Shown here in pieces: positions 39,339 to 56,071 of a stretch of 64,000 bases of DNA. The notes beneath the pieces were generated by a model that was not told the origin of the DNA, searched no databases, and saw only the letters and a program-made list of their open reading frames with translations. The translations under genes and the position numbers were made by a program. Positions within the stretch are counted from its first letter, which is position 1. Each line of letters starts with the position of its first letter. This DNA comes from Novisyntrophococcus fermenticellae (lineage in GTDB: Bacteria > Bacillota > Clostridia > Lachnospirales > Lachnospiraceae), in contig NZ_CP076458.1 in NCBI RefSeq assembly GCF_018866245.1, positions 2,852,001-2,916,000 on the forward strand, in the 5' to 3' direction.

Positions 39339-39341
39339 GTT

Positions 39342-40727
39342 TTATTTCCTCCAAATCTCATAATCCTGAAAACGAAATCCATTGACTGTGGTTTCTTCTT
39401 TACGCTCGATTCGATACTTCATATTCTTTCGCTGCCCATACAGACGAATATAGATTACTTTGATAAAGTCTTCGACACCTTCAAGCGGCAATTCTCCTGC
39501 CCGCATCGATGTGCGTTCCCCTAACCGTTCCTCAACATATGCACCGATTTTATCCGGGGTCAGCATACGCTGCATTTTCTCGGTCATTTTCCGCAGCTTT
39601 TCCTGCCTCAGCAAGATGTCCGGTTCGTATGTCTCTATTTCCTTCGGAACAAATTCCCGGTGTCCTTCCACCTGTGAGTAAAAGGAATTGCTGTCCGGAA
39701 AACTGCTGCTGTAAATCCGTACCAGATGATCTAAAAACTCTATTTCATATATCCCACCCAGATCCATCTGCTCTTCATTGATCTTTTCATTCAGCCCAAT
39801 CAGCAATTCTTTTAACTGCCCCCGGATGTCCTCACTTCCGGTCAACAGGAATTTCGCACGGTTGATTGCCGCCTTCTGATACTGGGCATTCTTATGATTA
39901 ATTTCGTTCAGGATGTCATCCATATTACGGAATGCTTCAATAATATCATGTAGATATTGATATACAAGTTCTTCCGCTTCAGTCACAGAAAATTCCTTCA
40001 TTGCAGCAATCTCCACGGCCGCCGATTCAATATAATTATGGCTCTTACTCTTACTCTCCAACCGCTCGATGATCTCCGGTCTGAACTTAGAAACATTATC
40101 CGATGTCAGCAGACGATGGTAAGCCTTGTCCACGATGTTCGTAATATAGTCATTGAATAAAGCATCCATAATTTCCGCAACAGTGCTGTGTTTCGTCAGT
40201 TCATCAATATAGTGTTTGATGTTGGAATTCAGATTCTTAAGTCCTGTAATCAGCAAATCTGTATTTTCCAGAATCTGCATCAGCACTACTCCGGGATTAT
40301 TGGTATTGCCTCGAACAAGGCTGTAGATGGTATAAATATACCCCTGATACTCTACCTGCTTACCATCCGCAATCTCTAACAAGGTCTTAATAATCCGTAC
40401 CGCATACTCCTTGAAATTAACCCGCTGAATATAACTTTTATCCGTCTCTATCTCAATCCAGCCATACTGCTCCAACCGCCGCAGCATCAGATTTGCCTTT
40501 CCCCGGCTATCGGCTGCGGCAAACTCCTCTTCACGCATCTCAGCTGCATTCTTCTGCTCAAAGTAATACTGCAGCTCATCCACCAGAACATCTCTTTCTA
40601 CACCAAAAGAAAGCTGTTGGTTCATGACCGAAAACAGCTTTAAAATACATTCCCAGTATGCAATTTTCCCCGGCGAAGAAAGCGGATTGAAAAAGTTTGC
40701 CGGAATGGTTGAAAACAGGTGGGGCAA
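39342..40727 (-). CDS. jetA: Wadjet protein JetA (MukF-like kleisin)
   Basis: A 461-residue kleisin-type subunit equivalent to MukF/MksF. The N-terminus FSTIPANFFNPLSSPGKIAY, a winged-helix part with QYGWIEIE and IQRVNFKEYAVRII, and a long helical middle (about 150-400) match the JetA family that I recall as DUF5716. The start is TTG at 40727, with GGAG seven bases upstream, and agrees with the family N-terminus. First gene of the Wadjet operon. The subtype (I or II) would need a profile search; the proteins are shorter than the type I reference set as I remember it. Confidence 0.85.
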   Translation of the reverse strand: MPHLFSTIPANFFNPLSSPGKIAYWECILKLFSVMNQQLSFGVERDVLVDELQYYFEQKNAAEMREEEFAAADSRGKANLMLRRLEQYGWIEIETDKSYIQRVNFKEYAVRIIKTLLEIADGKQVEYQGYIYTIYSLVRGNTNNPGVVLMQILENTDLLITGLKNLNSNIKHYIDELTKHSTVAEIMDALFNDYITNIVDKAYHRLLTSDNVSKFRPEIIERLESKSKSHNYIESAAVEIAAMKEFSVTEAEELVYQYLHDIIEAFRNMDDILNEINHKNAQYQKAAINRAKFLLTGSEDIRGQLKELLIGLNEKINEEQMDLGGIYEIEFLDHLVRIYSSSFPDSNSFYSQVEGHREFVPKEIETYEPDILLRQEKLRKMTEKMQRMLTPDKIGAYVEERLGERTSMRAGELPLEGVEDFIKVIYIRLYGQRKNMKYRIERKEETTVNGFRFQDYEIWRK

Positions 40728-40858: not shown

Positions 40859-42379
40859 CTACAGAAAATATTTTTTCAGCTCTCCAATCGTCCTGAGGGA
40901 ATATTCATATAAGGTAACACCAAAGTATCCTTCCCCGGAGATCTCTAAATCATAAGGGTTCCGAAGTGCTACAAAGGCTTTTGGGATTTTTTCTTTTTTT
41001 ACCGCTTCAATCAGTTTTTTCTGCCCTGCATACAGATGACCGTTCAAGGTAGCAAGTACAAGTGCCGATTTACCTCTGGAAGCAAGCAGGACCTTCTCAA
41101 TCTCCCGATCATCGGGATTCTGTGGGATACAGACAGCTTCCCCGCCAAACCTCTTTTGCATCTCATGGGAAAAATCAAACGCATCTGGAATACTGCTTGA
41201 GGCAAGTGTCACACGGGAAGGCACAGGCCCGACAAACACAGGATTCTTTCCCAGATAAAATACCTCAGATACATTTTCATTTTGCGGAGAGATGGTCTTC
41301 TTTAAAAATTCGTCTGCAAATTTAATCCGGGCTTTTGTATCAGATTTTTCCCCTTCTACTTGTAATGATACAGAAAGATTCTCTTTTTGAGCCAGGACAT
41401 GGGAAACTGCATCATCAATCCGTTCCATGGAAAGTCTCCCGTCCTCCAGCGCCCTCATTACCTCCAATATGGTGGATTTTGCAAGAGAAGGCGTATGGGA
41501 AATAAAGATTAAATCAACCCCGGCGGCAAGTGCTGCCACAGTCCCGGCTTCCGTCCCGTAAAATTCTTTTATAGCATTCATCTCCATACAATCAGAGATA
41601 ATCAGTCCCTGAAATCCAAGCTTTGCACGCAGAAGTCCATGAACGACGCTCCGGGACATCGTGCAGGGGATTTTTTCCGGCTCCAGAGCAGGAACCAGAA
41701 CATGTGCTATGGTAACCGCAGGAAGCCCCTCTTTGATTAGTTCTTTAAAAGGAAGCAGCTCCCTGCTCTCCAGTTGCTCATGGGATCGTTCGATGACCGG
41801 AAGAGAGAGGTGGGAATCCACTGATGTGTCTCCATGTCCCGGAAAGTGCTTTCCGGCACATAAAATCCCCCCATCCAGATATCCTCTCATCACAGCTTTT
41901 CCACACTGTGTGACCGTCTCAGGGTTTTCACCAAAGCTTCTGACGCCAATGACCGGATTTTCAGAATTGCTGTTGATATCCAGGACAGGAGCAAGATTAA
42001 AATTAATACCTGACTCTTTTAATTCTTGTGCCGTAATTTTTGCACCCTGATACATCAGATTCCTGTTTCCTGTATATGCCTGTGCCATGGCCGAGGGCAT
42101 GACCGCACACCCTTCGGGTAAGCGGGATACAACGCCTCCCTCTTCATCAATTGTAATGAAAGGGAGGACTCCTGTCGTCTTTTGTATTTTTGCATGTAGT
42201 TTTCCACACAACTGCTTCAGCTGTTCTTTGTTTTCCACATTGTGAGAAAATAAAATGACATTTCCCACTTTATATCTGTTTACAAGTTCAAAAAACGCAT
42301 CATCTGGTTCTCTTTCCGGAAACCCAACTACAAATAGCTGCCCTATTTTTTGCTGCAGTGTCATTTCTTCTATTTTCAT
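40859..42379 (-). CDS. nagZ: Cytoplasmic beta-N-acetylglucosaminidase, GH3 (NagZ-like)
   Basis: A GH3 enzyme that should remove non-reducing GlcNAc from GlcNAc-MurNAc fragments. The 506-residue protein has the diagnostic loop KHFPGHGDTSVDSH (177-190), carrying the Asp-His acid/base pair of NagZ enzymes, and the nucleophile Asp263 in IISDCMEMNAI. A C-terminal domain (about 350-506) of unclear role follows. No signal peptide or membrane segment is present, unlike the secreted NagZ of B. subtilis, so it acts on imported sugars. It is the last gene of the amino-sugar operon, 47 bases after namZ, the neighbour it also has in B. subtilis. Confidence 0.93.
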   Translation of the reverse strand: MKIEEMTLQQKIGQLFVVGFPEREPDDAFFELVNRYKVGNVILFSHNVENKEQLKQLCGKLHAKIQKTTGVLPFITIDEEGGVVSRLPEGCAVMPSAMAQAYTGNRNLMYQGAKITAQELKESGINFNLAPVLDINSNSENPVIGVRSFGENPETVTQCGKAVMRGYLDGGILCAGKHFPGHGDTSVDSHLSLPVIERSHEQLESRELLPFKELIKEGLPAVTIAHVLVPALEPEKIPCTMSRSVVHGLLRAKLGFQGLIISDCMEMNAIKEFYGTEAGTVAALAAGVDLIFISHTPSLAKSTILEVMRALEDGRLSMERIDDAVSHVLAQKENLSVSLQVEGEKSDTKARIKFADEFLKKTISPQNENVSEVFYLGKNPVFVGPVPSRVTLASSSIPDAFDFSHEMQKRFGGEAVCIPQNPDDREIEKVLLASRGKSALVLATLNGHLYAGQKKLIEAVKKEKIPKAFVALRNPYDLEISGEGYFGVTLYEYSLRTIGELKKYFL

Positions 42380-42426
42380 GCGGTCCTCCTGTTGTATCTG
42401 AAAATTTATTACAGAACACTTTGCTT

Positions 42427-43566
42427 TTAATACCTGTGATACTTTTCCTTACGCCGGCAAAACAACGCACTGTCGCTATCAAAAGATTCCAGCAATTCTT
42501 CCAATGACGTATTCGAATCAATAATTTTATCATTTCCAAACAGCAGCTCTATACTTCGCCTTCCCCCTTCACGGAAAGGCTCTAAGAACCGGAAATATTC
42601 CGGATAGCAGCTGCGGAATGCGTACAGCAGGGTCAGACCGGTCTTTGCAGGGCAAAAGACCTCTATATCTGTAATATGAACATGTATCCCCTGGCACTCT
42701 TCCTTCTCATACTTGGAAGTTGAGGGTACAAAATAAGCGGGGGAGAACAGGACTCCCGGCAGCTTCCTTTCATTCATATGCTTTGCAAACCGATATCCAT
42801 CCACATAGGGCGCTCCAATCAGTTCAAAGGGGGCAGCGGTTCCCCTCCCCTCCGAAAGATTCGTCCCTTCAAACAGACACGTTCCCGGGTATAAAAGCGC
42901 CGTCTCGAACCGGGGTATGCCAAGGCTTGGCATCACCCATATATTTCCTGTCTCCGGAAACAGCATCTCCCGTTTCCATCCCTCTATCGGAATTACGGTC
43001 AGCGGAAAATGATACTGCTGTTCATCATATATCATCTCTGCAAGTTCTCCTATGGTCAATCCATAGCGCATGCACAGGGGATAGGCACCGATAAAGCTTT
43101 CGTACTCCGGCTTTATCAAGTTTCCCTCTGCCTTTCCGCCCAAAGGATTCAGGCGGTCCAGAATAATCATCTCTTTTTGGCAGCTTTCGCAGGCCTGCAT
43201 GGCATAATACATCGTTGAAATGAAGGTAAAGTAGCGGACCCCCAAATCCTGGATATCATAGACAACCGCATCCACAAGCTCCAGCATTTCTTCCGTAAGA
43301 CGTTTGGACTCCTTTCGGTACAGGCTGAACACCGGTATTCCGGTATAGGGGTCTGTATAGCTGTCCACGACTTCCCCTGCGCCCATATTCCCCCGGACAC
43401 CGTGCTCCGGGCCAAAGAGCGCACGCAGTTCATATTTTCCGGCAAGTATTTCTATTGTCGAGCGAAGCTTCTGGTCCGCTCCTGAAATCGATGTGATAAG
43501 ACCTAGCCTTTTCCCACGCAATACCTTATCATAGTTGTCAATACAGTCAATTCCATTTTTTATCAT
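42427..43566 (-). CDS. namZ: Exo-beta-N-acetylmuramidase NamZ (DUF1343)
   Basis: A 379-residue DUF1343 protein. The family includes B. subtilis NamZ (YbbC), which releases MurNAc from the non-reducing end of peptidoglycan fragments. Conserved segments include GLITSISGADQ, ALFGPEHGVRG, DIQDLGVRYFTFISTMYY, LDRLNPLGG and YPGTCLFEGTNLSEGRGT. There is no signal peptide, so it should be cytoplasmic here. The ATG at 43566 has GGAGG five bases upstream; the frame extends four codons further. Together with nagZ it could take apart chains or disaccharides of either polarity. Confidence 0.93.
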   Translation of the reverse strand: MIKNGIDCIDNYDKVLRGKRLGLITSISGADQKLRSTIEILAGKYELRALFGPEHGVRGNMGAGEVVDSYTDPYTGIPVFSLYRKESKRLTEEMLELVDAVVYDIQDLGVRYFTFISTMYYAMQACESCQKEMIILDRLNPLGGKAEGNLIKPEYESFIGAYPLCMRYGLTIGELAEMIYDEQQYHFPLTVIPIEGWKREMLFPETGNIWVMPSLGIPRFETALLYPGTCLFEGTNLSEGRGTAAPFELIGAPYVDGYRFAKHMNERKLPGVLFSPAYFVPSTSKYEKEECQGIHVHITDIEVFCPAKTGLTLLYAFRSCYPEYFRFLEPFREGGRRSIELLFGNDKIIDSNTSLEELLESFDSDSALFCRRKEKYHRY

Positions 43567-43578
43567 ACAGGCCTCCAA

Positions 43579-44274
43579 TCAAAACTCATGTGCAATGATC
43601 CGCTTATCCTCTTCATTTACCGCAAACGCCTCGGCATATTCTGTTCTTGCCAGACAGCCATTGCATCGCATAAGATGGGCATAGTAATCCATATAGGGGA
43701 AGCTAGGGCTATTCACCGCAAACCAATGCAGCCGGATGGCTTTTTCCCAAAGTTCGAATCCTTCCCGGCTCACCACAGTATAGACATATGGCTTGAATTC
43801 AGGAGAATCCTCCCAATTCTGAGCATAATATGGTCCTTTTGCAAAATGAGCCTTATCCTTTCGTATAATTGCAGGCAATCCGGCGTAAAATTGTGCATCC
43901 CTGACGATTCTGTGCGTCAGCTCATGGTCCTTATGCATGCTGTATTTCCAATGTGTCATCAACGCTTCCGGCCTGTAGCTGCGTATCAGGTCACACACCT
44001 GGTAACGAACCTCTTCATTATCCGGCAGTTCCCCATCCACATAGGGCAGTACGACCGCTTTTCCACCCAGGACTCCGGCGAAATCCGCCGCTTCTTCCTC
44101 CTTTTGCTTCCGATATTCCTCTACCGTAAGATGCGGGGGATTTCCCCTTTCCCCTCCGGTCAGTGCCACTGTGACGATTTGATAGCCCTTTAAAGCATAA
44201 GTGGCTAATACACCCCCGCAGGTCAGCTCCACATCTCCTACATGCGCCCCTATCGCCATAACTGTCTTTGCCAT
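43579..44274 (-). CDS. PIG-L/LmbE family sugar deacetylase
   Basis: A 231-residue zinc-dependent deacetylase of the PIG-L family, which removes N-acetyl groups from GlcNAc-type sugars. The metal site shows a variant first motif, GAHVGDVELTCGG in place of AHPDDxE, keeping His, Asp and Glu, plus the HKDHELTHR pair later (about residues 123-131). TGGERGNPP lies between. No signal peptide. In this operon a substrate such as GlcNAc, MurNAc or a disaccharide is likely; no nagA (GlcNAc-6-P deacetylase) is nearby, so it might supply that step, but this is inference. Confidence 0.85.
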   Translation of the reverse strand: MAKTVMAIGAHVGDVELTCGGVLATYALKGYQIVTVALTGGERGNPPHLTVEEYRKQKEEEAADFAGVLGGKAVVLPYVDGELPDNEEVRYQVCDLIRSYRPEALMTHWKYSMHKDHELTHRIVRDAQFYAGLPAIIRKDKAHFAKGPYYAQNWEDSPEFKPYVYTVVSREGFELWEKAIRLHWFAVNSPSFPYMDYYAHLMRCNGCLARTEYAEAFAVNEEDKRIIAHEF

Positions 44275-44298
44275 ATCATACCTCCTCGTATGCCCTCA

Positions 44299-45270
44299 TT
44301 AATCTTCCTTTCTCATATCAGCCCAGGTCCTTACGATGGTGAAACCTGCATCCTCATATATGTTTCTGGCCGGGTTATTTTCTCCCGTGAACAGGGTCAT
44401 ATAGGACGCCCCCTCTTTTTTAAGTGCCTGACACAATTCGCAAAACAATAATTTAGCCAATCCTTTTCCGCGAAAATCCGGGTCAATTCCAATTCCTGCA
44501 AAATACCCTCTTCCGTTCTTTTCCACATCCAACGGGCCCGTGAAACCACATACCCGCTTTTCATAGACAGGAACCAGAATCGGACGTCCGCCTTTTTGAC
44601 GTGATGGTTCTCCAAGTATCTCCCGCTCCCACATGAGATTTCCGAATCTGCGCAGCATCTCCTCCATCCCTGTATGTATCCCTTTATCATATAGCTCCAG
44701 TTTAAATCCTGCACGATCCAGTTCGTTCTTTTTAGCCTCCATAGCCTTTGGGTAATGATAAGTATCCAAAGCCGCGTAGTAGCTGTTCTGCATGGAAAAA
44801 TCACGGTATCCGCAGTTTTTCAGGAAAAGATATGCACCGGACCCGATGTCCACACCCGGCATATTCGGATGTTCTGCTCCTTTCCTCCCCGGAACAACCC
44901 AGGATAACGTTATCGGATTAAAAAAGGAAATCTCCAGTCTATGCCGTTCCCCCCGGGCTATCAACTCCTGCTCAAGCTCATTTAAAATCCATCTGCCAAG
45001 GCCCCTTCCCCGTTCATCTTCTTTCACAATCACCATGGTAATGAAGGTCTTCTGTATGTTTTCATCCAGACACCCGGAAGCAAATGCCCTTCCCTCTTCT
45101 TCCAGCAGATTGACAGCCGTAATTCCTTTCCGCGCCGGATAAAGTGTTTCCTGAAATTTTTCAAAGCTCATTTTTTTAGAAAGCATATCCTGGTTTTGTA
45201 CCGACTGCACAAATAGTTGATATGCTTTTACAAGTAATGGTGAATCTTTCTGTATATGCACTGTCCTCAT
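44299..45270 (-). CDS. Tandem GNAT acetyltransferase
   Basis: A 323-residue protein with two GNAT folds. The N-terminal domain has the acetyl-CoA motif VKEDERGRGLGRWIL (about 83-97). The C-terminal domain has IGIDPDFRGKGLAKLLF (about 258-274) and the closing FTGENNPARNIYEDAGF. Both motif A loops look intact. It overlaps the upstream GH4 stop by four bases, so it is translationally coupled. It may re-acetylate an amino sugar, balancing the PIG-L enzyme beside it, or act on a peptide; the substrate is unknown. Confidence 0.82.
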   Translation of the reverse strand: MRTVHIQKDSPLLVKAYQLFVQSVQNQDMLSKKMSFEKFQETLYPARKGITAVNLLEEEGRAFASGCLDENIQKTFITMVIVKEDERGRGLGRWILNELEQELIARGERHRLEISFFNPITLSWVVPGRKGAEHPNMPGVDIGSGAYLFLKNCGYRDFSMQNSYYAALDTYHYPKAMEAKKNELDRAGFKLELYDKGIHTGMEEMLRRFGNLMWEREILGEPSRQKGGRPILVPVYEKRVCGFTGPLDVEKNGRGYFAGIGIDPDFRGKGLAKLLFCELCQALKKEGASYMTLFTGENNPARNIYEDAGFTIVRTWADMRKED

Positions 45271-46604
45271 AGCGTCCCCTCCTTGTCTATAGAAGTTTCG
45301 TCTGCAAAAAACCGTGGAAGATATTCCCGATGCACCTCCAATAGTTCCCCCAGCACAACCTCTGCAGTCTTCTGCGACATGACCAGAGGATTGATCATCA
45401 ATGCCAGCAGGGCTTTTTTCCTGTCACCCGTAACTGCCGCTGCACTTCCTGCTGCCTCAAAAGATTTAATTTGCTGGATCAATCCATTGACTGCTTTTGG
45501 CAGACGGCCAACCTTTTGAGGTACCGGCCCATTTTTGGTGATTGCACAGCTCACCTCCACAATTTCATCATCTTCAAAATTTTCTATTGCACCATGGTTT
45601 ACTGTATTGACCACCTGTATGTCCTGCTTATCATTATAGATGGAGTTAATCAGGTTACATGCTGCGTCACTGTAATAAGCCCCTCCCCGTTCTTCCAGAA
45701 GCTTCGGCTTCTGATCCAGACTGGGATTCTCATAAAGCTTGAACAGTTCTTCCTCCACACCTTTTACAAATTCCGCCCGTACCTCATGTTTCTCAAACTT
45801 TTCCTGCTCCTCCTGGAGGTATTCTTTTGTCATATAATAATACCTGTGGTAAGAACAGGGAAGCACACCCAGTTCTTCTATAAAGTCAGGATTCCAGACA
45901 ACTCCCTTGATATTCTTAACGCTCTGGTCTCCCCAAAGCTTCAGTACTTCTTTTGTTACATCTTTTTCATCCACAATGACTTTTGTGGCAAAGACCATAT
46001 GATTTAGTCCGCCGAAGGTTACCTGCACCTCCTCCATCCTGCGTTCTAAAAGTTCTGCAATGGCACGATGCATCCCAATAGGTACATTACACAAACCGAT
46101 GATCTTATGGAAATCCGTATACTTATGAATCCCTTCCATCACCATTCCTACAGGATTCGTGAAATTAATCAGCCATGCTTTTGGACACAACTCCTGCATA
46201 TCCCGGCAGATATCCATAATGACCGGAATTGTTCTCAATCCCTTAAACAATCCTCCCGCCCCATTCGTTTCCTGTCCGAGAATTCCATGAGAGATTGGAA
46301 TTCTCTCATCCTTAATTCTGGCCTGAAGCTGCCCTACACGAAGCTGTGTTGTCACAAAGTCCGCATCTTTCAGCGCTGTGCGGCGGTCCAGCGTCGTGCA
46401 GATTTCCATAGGCACTCCCGCCCTTTTTACCATACGGCGGGCCAGTCCGGCAACCACCTGCATCTTATGCTCACCTTCCGGTACATCCACCAGCCACAAT
46501 TCTTTTACCGGAAGGCTTTCATATCTCTTTAAAAACCCATCCACAAGCTCCGGCGTATAACTGGAACCACCTCCGATTGTTACAATCTTAATACCCTTCT
46601 TCAT
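45267..46604 (-). CDS. GH4 family 6-phospho-beta-glycosidase
   Basis: A 445-residue NAD+ and metal-dependent GH4 hydrolase, closest in wording to 6-phospho-beta-glucosidases (CelF, BglT, LicH). The N-terminal Rossmann motif is TIGGGSSYTPE; NFTNPVGMVMEGI and GLCNVPIGMHRAI contain the metal-binding Asn and Cys, and FGGLNHMVF carries the catalytic His region. GH4 enzymes work only on 6-phosphorylated sugars, so the operon must contain or receive a phospho-disaccharide. The ROK kinase one base upstream is the obvious source. The sugar specificity (glucoside or N-acetylglucosaminide) cannot be read directly. Confidence 0.9.
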   Translation of the reverse strand: MKKGIKIVTIGGGSSYTPELVDGFLKRYESLPVKELWLVDVPEGEHKMQVVAGLARRMVKRAGVPMEICTTLDRRTALKDADFVTTQLRVGQLQARIKDERIPISHGILGQETNGAGGLFKGLRTIPVIMDICRDMQELCPKAWLINFTNPVGMVMEGIHKYTDFHKIIGLCNVPIGMHRAIAELLERRMEEVQVTFGGLNHMVFATKVIVDEKDVTKEVLKLWGDQSVKNIKGVVWNPDFIEELGVLPCSYHRYYYMTKEYLQEEQEKFEKHEVRAEFVKGVEEELFKLYENPSLDQKPKLLEERGGAYYSDAACNLINSIYNDKQDIQVVNTVNHGAIENFEDDEIVEVSCAITKNGPVPQKVGRLPKAVNGLIQQIKSFEAAGSAAAVTGDRKKALLALMINPLVMSQKTAEVVLGELLEVHREYLPRFFADETSIDKEGTL

Positions 46605-46605
46605 C

Positions 46606-47487
46606 CTACACTCCTCTCTGGCAAACTTGTTTCAGAAGTAAAGAAAGCGCCCCGATTCTGCCTGCCTGATTTCCTGTTTCACACGCTCTGATTTCCGTAT
46701 ATGCCTCAAGCTGAGGAAACATGTTGTAAACAGTCTTCCGCAGATCGCCGATAAACCTTGGGGAACTGCAGATTCCCCCTCCGATCAGGACTGCTTCCGG
46801 ATCCAGCAGCATGGCTGTATTGCCTGTTACAAGTGCCGCCTTTTCCAGCCATATGTCGTATTTCTTTAAAATATCCGGATTATCCAGATGTCTGAATATA
46901 TAGATTCCATCCACGTCTCTTTCAAGCGACAGGGATACTTCCCGTACCAAGGCAGATGTGGCACCCACACTTTCACATAGGATTTTACCATCGGTCATGG
47001 AAGCTCCCAGTAAGGTCAAACCGGCTTCTCCTGCTTTAAAATGTTTTCCCCGGTACAGATTTCCATCCAGAACAAGTGCTCCTCCAATCCCTGTACCAAA
47101 CGTTAAAAGGCAGAAATCCCGAAGACCTCTGCCTGCCCCCATCACCATCTCACCAAGGGCAGCACAATTGCTGTCGTTTTCAAGAATCACCGGAAATTCC
47201 CCTGCTCTGGAAAGCGCTTGTTTCAAATTGTAAGCCCTGAAATTTTCACCAACACTATAGTCTATGTTTTCTCCTGTTTCGGGATTGATAAATCCGGCAA
47301 TACAAACTGCAGCTCCTTCCACCTCTTTCTTGTAACGAAGTAGTAGTGTTTCCAGCTGCTTTAAAAATTTCTCCGGGTTTTTCTTGGTTCCCTCACTCCC
47401 TTCCTCCAGTATCCTGTATTCCTCATCCATGATGCTGTGTTTTATAAATGTTCCTCCAATATCTATCGTCAGATACTTTTTTTTCAT
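46606..47487 (-). CDS. ROK family sugar kinase, BglK-like, no zinc motif
   Basis: A 293-residue ROK kinase with ATP motif LTIDIGGTFIKHSIMD, catalytic region LENDSNCAALGE, and FGTGIGGALVLDG. The CxCGxxGCxE zinc finger of most ROK kinases is missing. In its place stands HFKAGEAGLTLLGASM, as in beta-glucoside kinase BglK, which phosphorylates the non-reducing sugar of disaccharides. Start ATG at 47487 follows GGAGGGGGAG and overlaps the upstream stop by four bases. Its pairing with the GH4 gene suggests a kinase then phospho-hydrolase route. Confidence 0.87.
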   Translation of the reverse strand: MKKKYLTIDIGGTFIKHSIMDEEYRILEEGSEGTKKNPEKFLKQLETLLLRYKKEVEGAAVCIAGFINPETGENIDYSVGENFRAYNLKQALSRAGEFPVILENDSNCAALGEMVMGAGRGLRDFCLLTFGTGIGGALVLDGNLYRGKHFKAGEAGLTLLGASMTDGKILCESVGATSALVREVSLSLERDVDGIYIFRHLDNPDILKKYDIWLEKAALVTGNTAMLLDPEAVLIGGGICSSPRFIGDLRKTVYNMFPQLEAYTEIRACETGNQAGRIGALSLLLKQVCQRGV

Positions 47488-48425
47488 CTCTCCCCCTCCG
47501 AACATGCTTTATCTGTCAGCTGAAAAAGCCGTAGTGCGCCAGCTGCCGCTTCCCCATAATTTATGATAATTTCCATAGAGCTGTCATATGTCTCCAGGCA
47601 ACTGCATACAAGCTTTCGTATATGCAGATTATGGAGCAGCACACTTCCGCTCAGAGCAAGATGCTTTTCCTCCGGCATATTTCCGGATACAGCAATTACA
47701 AGATCGGCCAGGTCCCGGGCGCTCTTTCTTTCGATCTCCATAGCGGAACGATCTCCATACGCGGCCGCCTGACTGATAAGCGGAGCCAGGGACGCAACTT
47801 CTTTTTTCGAACGTCCTGGCTGATACAAAAAGCCCAACAGGTCTTCTGTTTTCCGAATATTTAATTTTTCAAAAACCAGCTTCTTAAGAAGGGTAGATTC
47901 CGCCCTTCCATCTTCTGCGCGTACCACTGCTGAAAGCATATCTCTGGCAATGGCATAAGCACTTCCCACATCATCAATCAGATGCCCGTATCCTCCTGCC
48001 CTGTACTGCCTGCCCCATGCATCCCTTCCTATACAGATTGAGCCGGTTCCTGAAATTAATACAATTCCGCGGCATTCCGGGAAGGCAGCCGCCAGAGCCG
48101 TTTCGTGATCCCCGAACAATCCGATACGGCAGAGGAAACCCTCCTGTTTGAACGCTTCCTTTAAAATTTGGGAAACCGCCGGGTTACTGATTCCAGCGGC
48201 TCCGATACCGACTCCCCGGCATTTATTGATTTTATATCCAAGCATTTTCAGCCGGATGTAAATATCGCGCAGAGTCTGAAGTGCTTTTTCTCTGCTCTGT
48301 CCATTCATGTTAAACGCTCCGGACTCGAACCGCTCTAAAATGTTGCCTTCTTCATCTGCAACGCAGACCATCGTCTTTGTTCCTCCGCCGTCAAGTCCAA
48401 GCAGATATGCTTTTTCTTTTTTCAT
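47484..48425 (-). CDS. BadF-type N-acetylmuramate/N-acetylglucosamine kinase (MurK-like)
   Basis: A 313-residue ASKHA kinase of the BadF/BadG family, in which MurK of Clostridium phosphorylates both MurNAc and GlcNAc at C6. Motifs are LGLDGGGTKTMVCVAD near the N-terminus, GDHETALAAAF, VLISGTGSICIGRD and AGGYGHLIDDVGSA. In the operon it would turn MurNAc freed by NamZ or NagZ into MurNAc-6-P, the substrate of MurQ. The start at 48425 has AAGGGTG six bases upstream; the frame begins nine bases earlier. Confidence 0.88.
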   Translation of the reverse strand: MKKEKAYLLGLDGGGTKTMVCVADEEGNILERFESGAFNMNGQSREKALQTLRDIYIRLKMLGYKINKCRGVGIGAAGISNPAVSQILKEAFKQEGFLCRIGLFGDHETALAAAFPECRGIVLISGTGSICIGRDAWGRQYRAGGYGHLIDDVGSAYAIARDMLSAVVRAEDGRAESTLLKKLVFEKLNIRKTEDLLGFLYQPGRSKKEVASLAPLISQAAAYGDRSAMEIERKSARDLADLVIAVSGNMPEEKHLALSGSVLLHNLHIRKLVCSCLETYDSSMEIIINYGEAAAGALRLFQLTDKACSEGER

Positions 48426-48430
48426 GACAC

Positions 48431-49294
48431 TCACCCTTTCACCGCGCCTACCGTAACGCCTTCCAGGAAATATTTCTGAAGTGAGAAAAACAGAATAAAC
48501 ATGGGAAGCGCAGAGACTGTTGCACCCGCCATCATCGGTGCAAAGTAAGTTGTATTGGCAAAGCTGAAGTTTTTCAAGCCAACCTGAACCGTCTGCATGG
48601 CTTCTGAATTACAGACCAGGAAGGGCCAGAAAAAGGTGTTCCATTCTCCGAGAAACGTCATGATTGCCATAACGGAAAGTATAGTTTTTGAAAGCGGCAC
48701 AACAATTTTCCACACGATCATCGGCTGGCTGCATCCTTCGATTTTTGCCGATTCCATAATGGAGGTTGGCAGTGAGGTGAAAAATTGCTTTGCCAAAAAT
48801 ACGTTGTAACAGGTCACGAGGGTCGGTGCAACCAGAGCCATATAAGTATCCTGGATCTTCAAGACATTGACCACCAGAATATACAGCGGTACCTGAGTTA
48901 CCTGGTAAGGTACCATCATCGCTACCAGAAGCACAAAAAAGAATACCTTGCATCCGGGAAAGCGCAGCTTTGCAAATGCATATCCGGCCAGTGTTGCGAA
49001 AATCACATTGCTAATCGTAACCACAGAGGCTACCAGCAAAGAGTTCAGTATCCAGCGAAAGGAATGGGCACTGAAAGAAAAAAAGAACTTATAGGAATTC
49101 AGCGTAAATTGTTTTGGAATCAGCGAATAGCTGGCTCCGCCCGCTTCTGTCGGCGCTCCAAAGGAGGAGATTACCATATAATAGATAGGAAATAACGTAA
49201 CCAGAGCGATCGTAAGTAATACAGCTGCCAGAAGAAAATTCCGGATTGTTCCTTTATATTTTAGTTTTCCGTTATATTTTTTATATAATCCCAT
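48431..49294 (-). CDS. Sugar ABC transporter permease (MalG-type)
   Basis: A 287-residue inner-membrane permease with six membrane segments. The coupling (EAA) loop reads IMESAKIEGCSQPMIVWKIV. TLFPIYYMVISSF near the N-terminus and the short ALPMFILFFSLQKYFLEGVTVGAVKG end are typical of CUT1-family MalG-type proteins. It would form a heterodimer with the permease upstream. No ATPase gene is in the operon, so a shared MsmK-type ATPase must be encoded elsewhere. Confidence 0.93.
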   Translation of the reverse strand: MGLYKKYNGKLKYKGTIRNFLLAAVLLTIALVTLFPIYYMVISSFGAPTEAGGASYSLIPKQFTLNSYKFFFSFSAHSFRWILNSLLVASVVTISNVIFATLAGYAFAKLRFPGCKVFFFVLLVAMMVPYQVTQVPLYILVVNVLKIQDTYMALVAPTLVTCYNVFLAKQFFTSLPTSIMESAKIEGCSQPMIVWKIVVPLSKTILSVMAIMTFLGEWNTFFWPFLVCNSEAMQTVQVGLKNFSFANTTYFAPMMAGATVSALPMFILFFSLQKYFLEGVTVGAVKG

Positions 49295-49306
49295 CTTGCC
49301 CTCCTT

Positions 49307-50182
49307 TTAATATTCCACATCGCCGGAGCTAAGCTTAAACTGCAGCACCGCAAAAACTGCTATGATTGCGGCAAGAATCAAAGCCTGGGCACAGGCTTCA
49401 CCATATTCAAAATATGTAAATGCACGATTGAAAATCAGTAATCCTGCCATGGTCGTTGCATTATCCGGTCCCCCGCCTGTCATCAGATATGCATTTTGGA
49501 AGGATTGGAAACCATTGATTACGCCTGTAATGGTCAGAAAAACCGTAGTAGGTTTTACAATTGGCCATACGACATAACGTACTTTCTGAAAGAAGGTGGC
49601 TCCATCTATATCGGCCGCCTCATAATAGGTTGAATCAATTCCAAGCAATGCAGCGGTATAAATAATGATATTCTGTCCCAGACCTGCGAAAACGGCCATG
49701 ATGATCAGGGACAGCATTGCAGTTTTCTGGCTTCCAAGCCAGTTTTGGTTGGATAAGCCGAATACCTTAACCACATTATTCAACAATCCGGACGGAAGCG
49801 GATCATAAATCCATTTCCACACGAAGGATAATGCAACCCCTGACGCAATTGCCGGGAGATAAAAGGCTGCCTTAAATACTGACTGCAGTTTTTTCCGAAA
49901 TGGCAGAATCATAATAGAAATCATGAAGGATAACAGCATGGATACCGGTACCGTTATAATGGAGTATACAAGTGTATTTTTCAGAGCCTTATAGAATAAG
50001 CCATTTTTAAAAGTATTTATATAATTGTCCAACCCAACCCACTCCGAACCCAGTGGTCTATACTTCTGAAAACTGATAACAGCTGCAGAGATTACAGGAT
50101 ATAATGTAAACACAATAAATGTGCACAACGGAACCAGTATGAACACATATGCCCACATGGCTTCTTTCTTCATTTTCTTCAT
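49307..50182 (-). CDS. Sugar ABC transporter permease (MalF-type)
   Basis: A 291-residue permease with six predicted membrane helices, starting AYVFILVPLCTFIVFTLYPV. The coupling loop TYYEAADIDGATFFQKVRYV is of the CUT1 family. It lies 109 bases after the binding-protein gene, separated by a strong hairpin, and 12 bases before its partner permease. Confidence 0.93.
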   Translation of the reverse strand: MKKMKKEAMWAYVFILVPLCTFIVFTLYPVISAAVISFQKYRPLGSEWVGLDNYINTFKNGLFYKALKNTLVYSIITVPVSMLLSFMISIMILPFRKKLQSVFKAAFYLPAIASGVALSFVWKWIYDPLPSGLLNNVVKVFGLSNQNWLGSQKTAMLSLIIMAVFAGLGQNIIIYTAALLGIDSTYYEAADIDGATFFQKVRYVVWPIVKPTTVFLTITGVINGFQSFQNAYLMTGGGPDNATTMAGLLIFNRAFTYFEYGEACAQALILAAIIAVFAVLQFKLSSGDVEY

Positions 50183-50232
50183 TGTTCAGGATCCTCCCAT
50201 TCCATCAGGTACATCCGGCGATTTGCTTCGGA

Positions 50233-50259
50233 CATCCTGTAAGCAAAGCTTACAGGATG
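50233..50259 (-). promoter_or_regulatory. Stable hairpin between binding protein and permease genes
   Basis: CATCCTGTAAGC (50233-50244), three A, GCTTACAGGATG (50248-50259): a perfect 12-bp stem without a T run. Such hairpins commonly protect the abundant binding-protein mRNA from 3' decay, giving it more product than the permeases. That role is inferred. Confidence 0.65.
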
Positions 50260-50291
50260 CTCCTTCATCACTTTAGCATTTTGCCGGAAGC

Positions 50292-51734
50292 TTAAGATTC
50301 GTCTGATACACATCCTGCCTCACCAAAGGCCGCATGTCCTGCATCTACAATTGCCTGGTACATCTCTTCAGGAGTAACCTCTCCCGCCAGCAGCCCCTGG
50401 AATTTCGGCATAATGACTTCATCCTGAATCTTTATGGCCGCAGCCCCCTTGTCGGCCGGTATGTCCGGTCTCGCTTCTGCAATCTGTGTTGTAAGGCTTT
50501 CTACTGCTTTTGTATTATCTTCATTCTTATTTTCAATTGGAGGCAGTTTCTCATAAGCAGTACGTCCGCTTTCACAAACCGGCTTTAAATAAAGTTCCTG
50601 ACAAGTCTGTGCAGCACGCTCACTGCTGGCAAGGTAGTATGCAACCTTTGCAACGTTTTTCAGATGCTGTTCATCCGGATTCTTTTCCCCCGTAAGGCAG
50701 ATATACCCGTCCACTGCTCCCTGTGCCTGCTGATTTCCTCCTTCGAATACCGGTACCGGAAGCACTACATATTCCACAGGAATACTTCCCTCTACTGCAC
50801 TGCCGTCATTGTTCTTCAGCTTTTCAGTGTTTTCATAGGCGGACTTTTCAAAGGAAGACAATCCTTTTCCTGTGATCATGGTCTGCCCGGTAAGCATCAT
50901 ATTCCATCTTTTTCCTGCATCGATAGAGCCCAGTTCCTTTGGCATGGAACCATCGTCAATCAAGGCTCTCAAGTCCTCCAGAAATGTAAGCATCTGTTTG
51001 CTGGTATATGCATACTTTAAGTCCTTATCAAAGGCCTCAGGCATCCCTGCATTCTTAACAAAAATGCCAAAATAGTCCTTTGCTGTAACACCGGCACAGG
51101 CAAAGAGAAATCCGTAGGTTTTTATCTGGTCACCCTCTTTTACAACGCCCTTCTTTATGGCTTCCCGGAATTCATCATACGTCCATCCATCTTTTTGTAC
51201 TGCTTTCCAGTCAATTCCGGCAGTCTCCAGAAGTTCTCTGTTTCCTCCGATACACTGAATCTCACAGTAGGCCGGAAGACCATACAGTCCTTCTTGATTC
51301 TTAAAATAATTCAGAACATTTTCATCAAAATCATTTATTTGATCCTCTTCCAGATATTTTGAGATATCTACAGCCATATCCGTATCCAGATACTTTGTTA
51401 CTCCGCTGCTGCCGATAAAGGCAATATCCGGCGGTGATCCGGCATTTACCTGGACATCCAGTTTCTGAGTTACATCCTCCCAGCTTGCCGTTGTGACTTT
51501 AATTTCAATATCCGGATTCTCCTTATTAAAATCCTCAATGTAGGTGTTAATTTTATCCTGATAAGTAGCAGAAACCGGAGGCAGTAAAGCTGTTACCACG
51601 TCCTTTTTTCCTTCTGCAGCCGTACCGGAAGCGGATGAACTTCCCCCTTTGTCTGTTCCACCACAGCCTGCCGCCAATGATGAAAGTGTCATCACAGCCG
51701 CCATCCCCAATGCTGCCATTTTTTTTCTTTTCAT
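50292..51734 (-). CDS. Sugar-binding lipoprotein of the ABC importer
   Basis: A 480-residue extracellular solute-binding protein (family 1). The signal peptide is MKRKKMAALGMAAVMTL and the lipobox LAAGC places the lipidated cysteine at 24, followed by a Gly/Ser-rich linker. The mature part has the CUT1 pattern: IEDFNKENPDIEIKV, IAFIGSSGV and a typical C-terminal lobe. Given the MurR, MurQ, NagZ and NamZ neighbours, the ligand is probably a peptidoglycan-derived amino sugar or disaccharide; this is inference. Confidence 0.9.
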   Translation of the reverse strand: MKRKKMAALGMAAVMTLSSLAAGCGGTDKGGSSSASGTAAEGKKDVVTALLPPVSATYQDKINTYIEDFNKENPDIEIKVTTASWEDVTQKLDVQVNAGSPPDIAFIGSSGVTKYLDTDMAVDISKYLEEDQINDFDENVLNYFKNQEGLYGLPAYCEIQCIGGNRELLETAGIDWKAVQKDGWTYDEFREAIKKGVVKEGDQIKTYGFLFACAGVTAKDYFGIFVKNAGMPEAFDKDLKYAYTSKQMLTFLEDLRALIDDGSMPKELGSIDAGKRWNMMLTGQTMITGKGLSSFEKSAYENTEKLKNNDGSAVEGSIPVEYVVLPVPVFEGGNQQAQGAVDGYICLTGEKNPDEQHLKNVAKVAYYLASSERAAQTCQELYLKPVCESGRTAYEKLPPIENKNEDNTKAVESLTTQIAEARPDIPADKGAAAIKIQDEVIMPKFQGLLAGEVTPEEMYQAIVDAGHAAFGEAGCVSDES

Positions 51735-51755
51735 AGAATAAAACCCTCCTTTTTT

Positions 51756-52664
51756 TTATATGGTTAACCGCTTTGACACGGCAACTTTCACTTTTCCATC
51801 TGCCTGCTCAAGGCACTCCCTGGCAGTTTCTATATCGCAGCTCAAAAGCATCTTTGTAATTGCCAGCTTTGCTCCTCCTCCGGCTTCCCGCAAAGCGGTT
51901 TTGGCTTCTTTTCTTTCGCATCCCACTGCTTCCATCACAATATTCTCCGCCCGGGTTACAAGCTTCTTATTCGTCTGGCGCAAGTCCACCATCAGATTTT
52001 GATATACCTTTCCTATGCCAACCATACTGACTGTAGATATCATATTTAATACCATCTTTTCTGCAGTTCCCGCCTTTAATCTGGTGGAACCGGTCAGAAT
52101 CTCCGGACCCGTCAGAAGTTCTATCGCACAGTCTGCCTTCTCCGAAATCTTTGTATTCGAATTGCAGGATATCGCTACTGTCCTGCATCCCACCTCCTTT
52201 GCATATTGAAGTGCACCAATTACATAAGGTGTTCTGCCGCTGGCGGCCAGCCCTATCACAACATCATCGGCTGAAAGATGGATCCGCTTCAGATCTTCCC
52301 TCCCAAGCTCCGGATCGTCTTCCGCCCCCTCTTCTGCCTTTACAAATGCTCCTTCGCCTCCTGCAATTACACCTACCACCATGTCATAAGAGACTCCAAA
52401 GGTAGGGGGGCATTCCACTGCATCCAAAATACCAAGACGCCCGCTGGTGCCTGCTCCTATGTAAATGATTCTCCCATCCTTCTGCAGGCTTTCTGTTGTC
52501 CATTCTATGGCTCTTCCGATCTGTGGAAGCGCATCATGGACTGCATCCAGAACCTTCTGATCCTCCTTATTCATGATTGTTATAATTTCATAAGGAGACA
52601 TCTCATCCAGATTCATAGTGCTCGTATTTCTCTTTTCTGTTATCAGTCTTTCTAAATCTGCCAT
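51756..52664 (-). CDS. murQ: N-acetylmuramic acid 6-phosphate etherase
   Basis: Splits MurNAc-6-P into GlcNAc-6-P and D-lactate. The 302-residue protein is a clear MurQ: ITEKRNTSTMNLDEMSP at the N-terminus, SIS domain with YIGAGTSGRLGILDAVECPPTFG and GLAASGRTPYV, and GTAEKMVLNMISTVSM. It overlaps the murR stop by 13 bases. It is the firmest indication that the operon handles MurNAc. Confidence 0.98.
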   Translation of the reverse strand: MADLERLITEKRNTSTMNLDEMSPYEIITIMNKEDQKVLDAVHDALPQIGRAIEWTTESLQKDGRIIYIGAGTSGRLGILDAVECPPTFGVSYDMVVGVIAGGEGAFVKAEEGAEDDPELGREDLKRIHLSADDVVIGLAASGRTPYVIGALQYAKEVGCRTVAISCNSNTKISEKADCAIELLTGPEILTGSTRLKAGTAEKMVLNMISTVSMVGIGKVYQNLMVDLRQTNKKLVTRAENIVMEAVGCERKEAKTALREAGGGAKLAITKMLLSCDIETARECLEQADGKVKVAVSKRLTI

Positions 52665-53530
52665 CGAATCTCTCCCTCATGATTGGTTTTCTCCTCTTTG
52701 GAGATATAGGTCTTTCTAAGACTGTCCATGCAAGTCTCATAGTTTTTCTGGACATATGCCACATACAGCATGTCAATGACTGCCAATTGCGAGAGTCTGG
52801 AACCTAATTTTCCGGTTCGGAACTCGAACTCGGTTGCTGTGACATATAGATTATAGTCGGAGATTTTAGATAATGGTGACTCATGATAACAAGTAATGGC
52901 AATAATCGGGACCCCGGCATCTTTTAAAATTTCCGCACATTCCACCATTTCCCTTGTCATCCCTGAATAGCTGATAATAATTGCCGCATCCCCACTGGTC
53001 ATATTCTTCGCCTGAACCAACTGTGCATGAAAATCCTCATTCACCAGGCATACCTTATTGACCCGCATGAACTTCAGACAGGCATCCTTTGCCACCAGTA
53101 AAGATGCGCCCATCCCGAAAATTGAAATCTTTCCTGCCGCCTGTAATATGGATACGCTTTCTTCCAGCACTTCCACATCAATCAGGCTTTTTGTATCTTC
53201 CAGGGAAACAATACTCTTATAAATAATTTTATTCACAAGTTGTTCTGTAGAATCCTCTTTGCTGATTTCACAATTTTTATCCCCTATGACTTCTTTGCGC
53301 ATTGCGTTTTCATACATGAGGGATTTTTGGAAATCCTTATAATGCTCAAAGCCCGTCTTCCTGCAGAGTCTGGTAATTGTGGAAGGTGAAGCGTAAACCT
53401 CTTTTGCCAGTTCACGGACACCCATCTCCGCCGCCTTCTCCGGATTTGCTAACAGATATCGGATGATGCCTTTCTCTGTATTACTGGCATTGGGCAAAAA
53501 CTCGCGAAACTTGACAATGACACTTTTCAT
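52652..53530 (-). CDS. murR: MurR/RpiR family transcriptional regulator
   Basis: A 292-residue regulator with an N-terminal RpiR-type helix-turn-helix (about 1-77; AAEMGVRELAKEVYASPSTI) and a C-terminal SIS sugar-phosphate-binding domain (about 120-260; ISIFGMGASLLVAKDA, AIIISYSGMTREM). E. coli MurR is released from DNA by MurNAc-6-P. It heads the twelve-gene operon and probably controls it. GGGGGG precedes the ATG. Confidence 0.92.
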   Translation of the reverse strand: MKSVIVKFREFLPNASNTEKGIIRYLLANPEKAAEMGVRELAKEVYASPSTITRLCRKTGFEHYKDFQKSLMYENAMRKEVIGDKNCEISKEDSTEQLVNKIIYKSIVSLEDTKSLIDVEVLEESVSILQAAGKISIFGMGASLLVAKDACLKFMRVNKVCLVNEDFHAQLVQAKNMTSGDAAIIISYSGMTREMVECAEILKDAGVPIIAITCYHESPLSKISDYNLYVTATEFEFRTGKLGSRLSQLAVIDMLYVAYVQKNYETCMDSLRKTYISKEEKTNHEGEIRWQI

Positions 53531-53644: not shown

Positions 53645-53673
53645 ATTATATTATTCAGAAACACTTTCGTCTA
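53645..53673 (-). promoter_or_regulatory. Probable promoter of the murR amino-sugar operon
   Basis: TAGACG (53668-53673), 17 bases, consensus TATAAT (53645-53650) on the minus strand, leaving a leader of about 110 bases. The rest of the gap at 53531-53760 is A/T-rich with no clear operator that I can define. Confidence 0.5.
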
Positions 53674-53766
53674 CTACTCTCTCTATTTATGATACTTTGT
53701 TTCATATATTGAATGCATTATCTGGAATTTTAGATTTTTATGAAAGCATTGATATCTGCAACAGAA

Positions 53767-53814
53767 AGAAGAGGCTGCTATATAAGGAATTCTTCCCATA
53801 TAGCAGCCTCTTCT
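53767..53814 (-). terminator. Terminator of the ctpA-side M18 gene
   Basis: AAGAAGAGGCTGCTATAT (53767-53784) and ATATAGCAGCCTCTTCTT (53797-53814) form a perfect 18-bp stem just after the aminopeptidase stop, followed by CTTTCTG on the minus strand. Confidence 0.85.
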
Positions 53815-53821
53815 TTCTTAA

Positions 53822-55153
53822 CTATTCTTCTGTTTCATCATCCATTTTGACCTTATAGATATGATCTTTCACGATTTCAATATCTGAACTATAGAACGTC
53901 CTTGCAGCCTTAATCAGATGCTCCGTATCCTTCACTCCGGCTGTTTCATATGGGGAGTGCATCGCCAGCTGGGGCAGGCCTATATCTGCCATAGGTAAGG
54001 ATACCTGTCCATTCGAAATATTGCCCAGTGTCGAGCCTCCCGGTATATCCGAACGGTTAACATAAACCTGACAGGGTACCTGCGCATGCGCGCAGATTGT
54101 TCTGAAAACTGCTGAACTGATACCATCCGTTGTATACTTTTGGTTCGCATTAAACTTCAGTACAATTCCCCCATTGATATAAGGACGGTTGCCGGGATCC
54201 GTTTTATCCTGATAGTTCGGATGTACGCTATGTGCATTGTCTGCTGAAAGCATAAAACTGGATGCAAGTGCGCGCAGATAGCTTGCCCTGTCTAATCCCA
54301 TACCATCAGAAATCCGTTCCAGTGTATCTTTCAAGAAAGTGGATGCCGCTCCCTGCCGGGTCAGACTCCCCACTTCTTCGTTATCCAAAACGCAGTGCAT
54401 CATCACATGCTTCCGGTTCCGGCTCACCAGAAAGCCCTTTAAAGAGGAAAATGCACACTGAAGATCATCCAGTCTGGCGCTGGAAATAAATTCCTCCTTC
54501 GCTCCCCATATACTCCCTTTCATCCTGTTATAAAGATAAATGTCCATTCCCAGAACATGTTCCGGTGATACCCCGGCCTGCTCACTCAGGATTTTCATCA
54601 AAGAGCCTTTGGTCCCCTCACCGCCAAATAACGGAAGCATATCATTCTGAGGATTATATGCGTATCCATCATTGACTTCTCTATTCATGTGAATTGCCAG
54701 ACTCGGAATCTGAACGAGATCCCTGTCTACCTTGACCAGCCGGGATACAATCTGATCTTCTTCCCGGAACAGGAGTCTTCCCGCAAGTGATAACGGTCTG
54801 TCAAACCAGGGAGCCATCAACATTCCCCCATATTTCTCCACATTCAGCTTAACAAAATGACCCTCTGCCTCGATCTCGGGATTTTCTTTTAATTTAAAGG
54901 TGGGAGAATCACTATGGCTGGCCATAATCTGAAAACTTTTCATCTCCTCTGACGGAATTGTAAATGCAATCAGAGACGATCCATTGCGCGTCACGTAATA
55001 CTTTCCATCTGGTTTGAGATTCCATAGCTCTTCCTCGTATAGATGTTTAAATCCTGCTTCCTCAAGCTCCAGTGCCATACTTTCAACTGCATGAAAACTG
55101 GTAGGACTTTTCTCTATAAAGCTTAAAAGTTCTTCTGCAGTATATTTATTCAT
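53822..55153 (-). CDS. M18 family aspartyl aminopeptidase
   Basis: A 443-residue dinuclear zinc aminopeptidase of the M18 family, probably a cytoplasmic dodecamer removing N-terminal Asp or Glu. Metal and catalytic segments: ASHSDSPTF (first His, about 83), ARLDDLQCAF, DNEEVGS and the late QLAMHSPYETAG. SADNAHSVHPNY is the family signature. It overlaps the degV stop by four bases. Confidence 0.93.
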   Translation of the reverse strand: MNKYTAEELLSFIEKSPTSFHAVESMALELEEAGFKHLYEEELWNLKPDGKYYVTRNGSSLIAFTIPSEEMKSFQIMASHSDSPTFKLKENPEIEAEGHFVKLNVEKYGGMLMAPWFDRPLSLAGRLLFREEDQIVSRLVKVDRDLVQIPSLAIHMNREVNDGYAYNPQNDMLPLFGGEGTKGSLMKILSEQAGVSPEHVLGMDIYLYNRMKGSIWGAKEEFISSARLDDLQCAFSSLKGFLVSRNRKHVMMHCVLDNEEVGSLTRQGAASTFLKDTLERISDGMGLDRASYLRALASSFMLSADNAHSVHPNYQDKTDPGNRPYINGGIVLKFNANQKYTTDGISSAVFRTICAHAQVPCQVYVNRSDIPGGSTLGNISNGQVSLPMADIGLPQLAMHSPYETAGVKDTEHLIKAARTFYSSDIEIVKDHIYKVKMDDETEE

Positions 55154-56022: not shown

Positions 56023-56071
56023 AAGCTCTGTCTCCCTCCTTTGTGTGAACGATGGTATCATTCATATGCTT

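Follow-up and report, generated by a model that had tools for sequence, protein, structure and literature searches.

A 64,000-nucleotide stretch of the Novisyntrophococcus fermenticellae genome (contig NZ_CP076458.1, positions 2,852,001 to 2,916,000; hereafter the window, whose first letter is position 1) carries twelve consecutive open reading frames (ORFs), all on the minus strand from 53530 to 40859. They probably form an inducible operon for uptake of peptidoglycan amino sugars by an ATP-binding cassette (ABC) transporter and for their breakdown in the cytosol, with a parallel branch made of a ROK-family kinase and a family 4 glycoside hydrolase (GH4). Gene content, gene order, motifs and operator are read from the sequence, while the biochemical steps are proposed.

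In the proposed pathway a lipoprotein and two permeases, served by a shared MalK-type ATPase, would import disaccharides containing N-acetylmuramic acid (MurNAc). The tandem GNAT protein, judged by its fold, may re-acetylate free glucosamine (GlcN) residues so that NagZ can cut the disaccharide of N-acetylglucosamine (GlcNAc) and MurNAc, GlcNAc-MurNAc, and NamZ, judged by its family, would cut MurNAc-GlcNAc. MurK would phosphorylate MurNAc and GlcNAc, and MurQ would convert MurNAc-6-phosphate (MurNAc-6P) to GlcNAc-6P and D-lactate, the last steps being left to NagA and NagB, whose genes lie elsewhere. In parallel, the ROK kinase might phosphorylate a beta-1,4 disaccharide on its non-reducing sugar and GH4 cleave the resulting 6-phospho-disaccharide, ROK and GH4 taking the place of the phosphotransferase system (PTS) and GH4 of Bacilli. 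An RpiR-type regulator would act on a two-arm operator, from which MurNAc-6P probably releases it.

Gene content, conservation and operator

The first-pass annotation described twelve tightly packed same-strand genes of named families, which Pfam and curated profiles bear out. Intergenic gaps, in gene order, are -13, 21, 109, 12, -4, -22, 1, -4, 24, 0 and 47 nt, thus from -22 to +109 nt. The features, in the direction of transcription, are:

53767..53814 (-), terminator-like hairpin of 20 pairs, separating the M18 peptidase gene upstream from the operon
53645..53704 (-), operator/promoter: arm TGAAACAAAGTATCA, -35-like TAGACG, second arm TGTTTC at offset 41 from the first, then TATAAT
52652..53530 (-), murR-like RpiR/SIS regulator: PF01418 and PF01380; below the MurR equivalog cut-off
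51756..52664 (-), murQ, MurNAc-6-phosphate etherase: TIGR00274, 396.6 bits, cut-off 302
50292..51734 (-), ABC substrate-binding lipoprotein: PF01547 (SBP_bac_1), lipobox pattern
49307..50182 (-), ABC permease 1: PF00528 (BPD_transp_1)
48431..49294 (-), ABC permease 2: PF00528 (BPD_transp_1)
47484..48434 (-), MurK-like MurNAc/GlcNAc kinase (BadF family): best PDB match 8zo3, expectation value (E) 1.7e-43
46606..47505 (-), ROK sugar kinase, proposed disaccharide 6-kinase: PF00480; nearest solved 5nck and 4htl
45267..46604 (-), GH4 6-phospho-beta-glycosidase: 1s6y, E 8.7e-173; CNVP present
44299..45270 (-), tandem GNAT, proposed glucosamine/glucosaminide N-acetyltransferase: folds 4zm6 and 5kf1; profile match 5kga in both halves, E 1.9e-11
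43579..44274 (-), PIG-L/LmbE-fold protein without the general-base Asp: PF02585; HxGD in 12 of 12
42427..43578 (-), namZ, exo-beta-N-acetylmuramidase, no visible signal peptide: PF07075 (NamZ_N) and PF20732 (NamZ_C); PEHGxRG
40859..42379 (-), nagZ, GH3 beta-N-acetylglucosaminidase, no visible signal peptide: PF00933; KHFPGHGDTxxDSH; best PDB match 6k5j, E 1.4e-93

In a sequence scan a promoter-like site (53673-53645) and the hairpin (53814-53767) mark the operon start; both site classes are about as frequent in that scan as in shuffled sequence (promoter-like 26 vs 27.4, terminator-like 15 vs 12.9).

Conservation of the set was followed in 69 loci (L numbers) from GTDB genomes, gathered by one pattern scan seeded with the operon GH4, so that the sample leans to relatives of this enzyme; L082, L083 and L085 repeat L008, L016 and L005 and were counted once. 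This search finds the twelve genes in the same order in 7 of the 69 (L003, L004, L005, L007, L008, L009 and L068; a 1.2-kb gap precedes nagZ in L008), and all twelve genes also in L084, from another species of the genus. Eleven genes are present in L006, from Blautia hansenii, as far as the contig end and four in L002, on a 4.7-kb contig. The shared order argues against a chance grouping. The set is rare: an orthologue of its PIG-L protein (E <= 1e-30) is found in 3 of 200 genomes of the family, the window's own included, and in 4 of 6 genomes of the genus, and NamZ exceeds its cut-off in 4 of the 200.

The core formed by murQ, murK, namZ and nagZ is kept together in 7 of the 69 loci and recurs in part in L014, L137 and L153. 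This tells against a host-glycan or plant-oligosaccharide operon with the Mur genes as passengers, an extremely unlikely reading with which the resemblance of the lipoprotein and permeases to general sugar importers would agree. L137, from the genome of L015, carries murK, nagZ, namZ, AnmK, RpiR and murQ genes with a cut ABC permease gene, hence a second ABC-type MurNAc core, and has no GH4 on its 8-kb contig. L153 has a murQ-AnmK-murK-namZ cluster.

The same two-arm layout lies upstream of murR in nine of nine genomes (the window, L003, L004, L005, L007, L008, L009, L068 and L084): TGAAACAAAGTACCA, a -35-like stretch, TGTTTC at offset 41 and TATAAT. Deviations are few, with two mismatches in arm 1 and one in arm 2 of L004, one in arm 1 of the window and a different -35 part in L009. 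Pairwise identity averages 0.91 in arm 1, 0.77 over the -35 part and arm 2, and 0.73 at the -10 element, vs 0.26-0.39 in six flank and spacer stretches around the operator. A conserved operator amid unconserved flanks is the best evidence for the predicted common control of these genes, and the RpiR-type protein encoded beside it may be what binds there. A wider MurR regulon was rejected, the own genome having 12 sites with at most two mismatches vs 10 for a reversed-pattern control. The complete layout is found among those 12 only at the operon; at site L097 the offset of the second arm is right, but that arm is loose and TATAAT is missing. In L010, L011, L018 and L024 a related arm, CGAAACAAAGTTCCA, and an inverted partner GGAAC-GTTTC lie downstream of GH4; together they are perhaps the operator of variant operons.

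The MurNAc core and its proposed importer

MurQ is well above its curated cut-off (see the list above). The nearest solved relative of the BadF-family kinase is the MurNAc/GlcNAc kinase 8zo3, whose sequence we take to come from Clostridium acetobutylicum; its best match in the six genomes reached through the loci has 39% identity. The C. acetobutylicum MurK accepts both MurNAc and GlcNAc, according to the available part of PMC5790795. NamZ has both domains of its family, with 4k05 as nearest solved structure, and the second PDB match of NagZ, after 6k5j, is 4zm6. As presumed diagnostic motifs, PEHGxRG for NamZ and, for NagZ, KHFPGHGDTxxDSH (His/Asp dyad) and SDxMxM (nucleophile) were used. PEHGxRG is found in 10 of 10 NamZ cluster members, that of the window included, and the dyad motif in the window NagZ and 11 of 11 cluster members. 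The identities given earlier to murQ, the MurK-like kinase, namZ and nagZ thus hold by cut-off, by 8zo3 and by family domains and motifs. Genes nagA and nagB lie elsewhere in the genome, both over their cut-offs; a TAA flagged in nagB is its terminal stop.

The import genes code for a substrate-binding protein and two ABC permeases by Pfam, and the PTS transporter MurP is not encoded in the operon, in line with the claim of ABC-type instead of PTS import. A lipobox pattern is seen on the binding protein of the window and in 7 of 9 sequences overall. The operon contains no ABC ATPase gene; the family search finds one MalK-type ATPase domain in the genome, encoded elsewhere, which makes it likely that the importer is energised by a shared ATPase of this type. 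MurNAc disaccharides or longer fragments would enter through the lipoprotein.

Signal peptides were assessed by a Kyte-Doolittle scan (best 12-residue mean in the first 50 residues) and by reading in frame upstream of the start codons. The best mean is 0.75 for NagZ, 0.69 for NamZ and 1.97 for the lipoprotein; the other sequences compared have 0.60-1.57 for NagZ (highest in L009) and 0.67-1.18 for NamZ. A stop directly precedes the NamZ start, and the NagZ frame is closed 24 codons upstream with no long hydrophobic run by eye. By these two means, no signal-peptide predictor being among them, none is visible on either hydrolase, so that NagZ and NamZ are probably cytosolic, in agreement with the first-pass annotation.

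ROK kinase, GH4, GNAT and PIG-L-fold proteins

The nearest relative of the window GH4 is the 6-phospho-beta-glucosidase 1s6y. It carries CNVP, which we take to be indicative of GH4 6-phospho-beta-glucosidases and which is present in 57 of the 67 rows of our context table and tree (the window and 66 of the 69 loci; L024, L041 and L065 were dropped for length). Note that the window was given its label, A, by hand, and that the rule applied to L015 and L016 passed over their PIG-L, RpiR and beta-lactamase-family genes and so classed both as A without mur. The ROK protein is nearest, among solved structures, to 5nck (N-acetylmannosamine kinase) and 4htl (beta-glucoside kinase); neither the window protein nor any of the 15 cluster members has the pattern GCxCGxxGCxE. 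A ROK gene of at least 40% identity lies directly upstream of GH4 in 22 rows, the window included, which form one branch (support 97/100), and none of the 22 has PTS genes within 10.5 kb. Conversely, PTS genes lie within 4.5 kb in 33 rows, none of them with such a ROK gene; L035 has a ROK gene of 27% identity, 3.5 kb downstream. The kinase therefore seems to replace the PTS, and a kinase-dependent GH4 branch is likely from gene context.

The earlier annotation listed GH4 in the salvage set and left its role unexplained. The gene is present, and its kinship to 6-phospho-beta-glucosidases implies a second, kinase-dependent route. Tentatively, and with rather low confidence, we propose that ROK and GH4 form an undescribed route by which GlcNAc(or GlcN)-6P-beta-1,4-MurNAc is first formed and then cleaved within the cytosol, a mirror image of MupG, and that the MupG-linked GH4 clade of Bacilli does likewise behind a PTS. 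In that separate clade, 16 of 17 rows (L025, L027, L028, L031-L034, L038, L045-L047, L049, L050, L062, L063 and L070; mostly Bacilli, with a cellobiose-type PTS) have PTS and MupG genes and a remote murK-like gene (27-31% identity). Ten of the 16 also have murQ, nine AnmK and nine GHL10; 12 have any of these and four none. They perhaps represent a PTS version of peptidoglycan disaccharide salvage.

A monosaccharide operon, in which free MurNAc and GlcNAc are imported and phosphorylated by MurK and ROK while the glycosidases mop up internal turnover products, would fit the dual specificity of the C. acetobutylicum MurK in the available text of PMC5790795 and the presence of GlcNAc and ManNAc (N-acetylmannosamine) kinases in the ROK family. 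It is unlikely: two exo-hydrolases of opposite polarity, with a phospho-glycosidase besides, require oligosaccharides inside the cell, MurK would make ROK redundant, and the strict pairing of ROK with GH4 would be left unexplained.

Of more weight, if still short of an even chance, is a mixed amino-sugar operon: MurQ, MurK, NamZ and NagZ would act on peptidoglycan, as in the pathway that we prefer, and the difference lies in the GH4 branch, where ROK, GH4 and PIG-L would serve chitobiose, or some other disaccharide of GlcN/GlcNAc, taken up by the same importer. Chitobiose is handled by ChbG and ChbF in Escherichia coli. In 12 of the 67 rows the GH4 relative does have PTS and YdjC-family genes near it (YdjC without PTS in two more); these YdjC-type GH4s, however, are on other branches of the tree, and PIG-L has lost its general base (see below). 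The ROK-GH4 pair lies inside a murQ operon in the 7 complete loci, but is found without peptidoglycan genes nearby in L017 (neighbour, a rhamnosidase gene), L019 (an alpha-galactosidase gene 5.5 kb off), L020 (a GH94 fragment) and L021 (ABC permease genes), so that it may serve cellobiose-like sugars. In L015 and L016 the pair is accompanied by genes for an Opp-type importer, for PIG-L and for a beta-lactamase-family protein; L015 starts with a truncated ORF that by eye resembles the carboxyl-terminal end of NagZ.

The GNAT model (mean predicted local distance difference test score, pLDDT, 92.5) has a tandem GNAT fold. Its first fold match is 4zm6 and the next 5kf1 (template modelling score, TM, about 0.65; identity 13-19%), by their PDB titles a fungal GH3 N-acetylglucosaminidase with a glucosamine N-acetyltransferase region and the C. 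acetobutylicum glucosamine N-acetyltransferase, respectively; both halves match the 5kga profile. Since 4zm6 matches both the GNAT and the NagZ of the operon, the two activities are joined in one protein in the fungus and are carried by two genes here. The model supports a role of GNAT in re-acetylating GlcN, which would enable NagZ to act.

The PIG-L orthologues have HxGD in 12 of 12, with Gly where the general base D1 of LmbE-type enzymes stands, and keep the metal ligands H11 and D14 and an invariant HKDH (12 of 12). LmbE-type enzymes have HXD1D2 with D1 as general base; for all ten of its enzymes, Table 1 of PMC4101496 gives an Asp at this place. Loss of this Asp makes simple deacetylation by the PIG-L protein doubtful: the PIG-L member proposed earlier is borne out as a PF02585 gene, one that has lost a catalytic residue. 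GalB, a hydratase of the same fold, also lacks D1 in the alignment, and 8bgn and 2ixd keep it. The model (pLDDT 79.4) matches 2ixd and GalB about equally, so that the fold does not decide the function. The idea that PIG-L simply replaces ChbG was dropped because the general base is missing. Among 29 PIG-L matches in 61 genomes, 19 have HxDD, six HxGD and one HPLD, and three are unreadable; five of the six HxGD proteins are the operon orthologue group, and the sixth, L130, 58% identical, adjoins a GNAT gene. GNAT and PIG-L genes are adjacent also in L014 and L136, lie 4 kb apart in L016, and in L152 GNAT stands near namZ with no PIG-L match; from the last two layouts they are not always paired. 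In L136 (8832-10604), from another family of the order, GNAT adjoins an HxGD PIG-L gene, and no mur genes were matched in the 20-kb stretch.

It is very unlikely, in our estimate, that PIG-L and GNAT act one after the other on the muramic nitrogen, PIG-L opening an uncommon amide (for example the muramic delta-lactam of spore cortex) and GNAT re-acetylating the product to MurNAc. The own genome has the spore protein PdaA over its cut-off, as do 3 of 6 genomes of the genus, and the operon PIG-L is found in 4 of 6. The overlap is partial and the genomes without PdaA over the cut-off include an incomplete one, so that the comparison has no bearing on the lactam idea.

Several results weigh against the proposed peptidoglycan pathway. 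The regulator belongs to RpiR/SIS by Pfam and reaches 135.6 bits vs the curated MurR cut-off of 408, so that the description as a MurR-controlled operon rests on synteny and operator: an RpiR-type gene beside a conserved operator is what stands of it. Matches of the lipoprotein among solved binding proteins are weak and mixed. The NagZ nucleophile pattern, a looser one, is present in the window protein but in no more than 6 of 11 cluster members, with SDCLEM in L007 and the other four not readable. Fold matches of GNAT are only moderate, tandem GNATs of other functions following close behind (TM 0.54-0.60). ROK is far under the BglK cut-off (119 of 550 bits), CNVP is absent from 10 of the 67 GH4 rows (L015, L016, L019 and L020, four of the five members of the L014 branch, and six others), and the four ROK-GH4 loci without peptidoglycan genes belong here too.

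Known systems and neighbouring genes

The types of MurQ, MurK, NamZ, NagZ and GNAT are already known. New, as far as our literature searches reach, are the fixed PTS-free twelve-gene operon, its operator and the proposed kinase/GH4 branch; among the listed titles and abstract beginnings of open-licence PMC papers, none describes this gene set or a peptidoglycan GH4. The operon resembles the Bacillus subtilis mur operon, of gene order murQ-murR-murP-amiE-nagZ-namZ, in its MurR-like regulator and its MurQ, NagZ and NamZ families. It differs in having an ABC importer and not a PTS, hydrolases without visible signal peptides, the additional MurK, ROK, GH4, GNAT and PIG-L, and no amiE-like gene among the twelve. 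With the E. coli chitobiose pathway (ChbBCA, ChbG, ChbF) it shares a GH4 phospho-glycosidase; PTS and YdjC are missing among the twelve, and ROK and a PIG-L-fold protein are found instead.

The C. acetobutylicum genes for MurK and for the glucosamine N-acetyltransferase (GlmA) are taken to lie together with nagZ. Both the MurNAc/GlcNAc kinase family (8zo3) and the tandem GNAT fold (5kf1) recur in the operon, which adds NamZ, GH4, ROK and PIG-L and whose GNAT is remote in sequence (profile E 2e-11). The earlier view that known MurNAc operons (E. coli, B. subtilis) use either PTS import or secreted NagZ and NamZ was incomplete, related cytosolic proteins being found in C. acetobutylicum (MurK in the available text of PMC5790795, GNAT in PDB titles). 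The MurP-MupG-MurQ route of Staphylococcus aureus, in the part of PMC6262408 available, has intact disaccharide import, here proposed, a phospho-disaccharide logic and MurQ in common with the operon, which is without PTS and MupG and for which a kinase and GH4 are proposed instead. Muramic acid recycling in mycobacteria is the subject of PMC13041923, as far as its available text goes.

Gut Firmicutes constantly meet the cell walls of dead neighbours, on whose use the open-licence literature searched says little. The operon is an example of a design without PTS, in which new roles are predicted for ROK, GH4 and GNAT proteins. Its enzymes are soluble and easily assayed, its operator is a marker for related operons, and its PIG-L protein should not be labelled a deacetylase without a test.

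Genes for an M18 aminopeptidase and a DegV protein (53822-56061, minus strand) lie upstream of the operon, set off by the terminator-like hairpin. Directly downstream is a type I Wadjet system (34306-40727, minus strand), whose frame starting at 40727 is the nearest downstream gene. JetA, JetB and JetC were assigned by PADLOC, and a 408-residue ORF at 34306-35532 is likely JetD by position and size.

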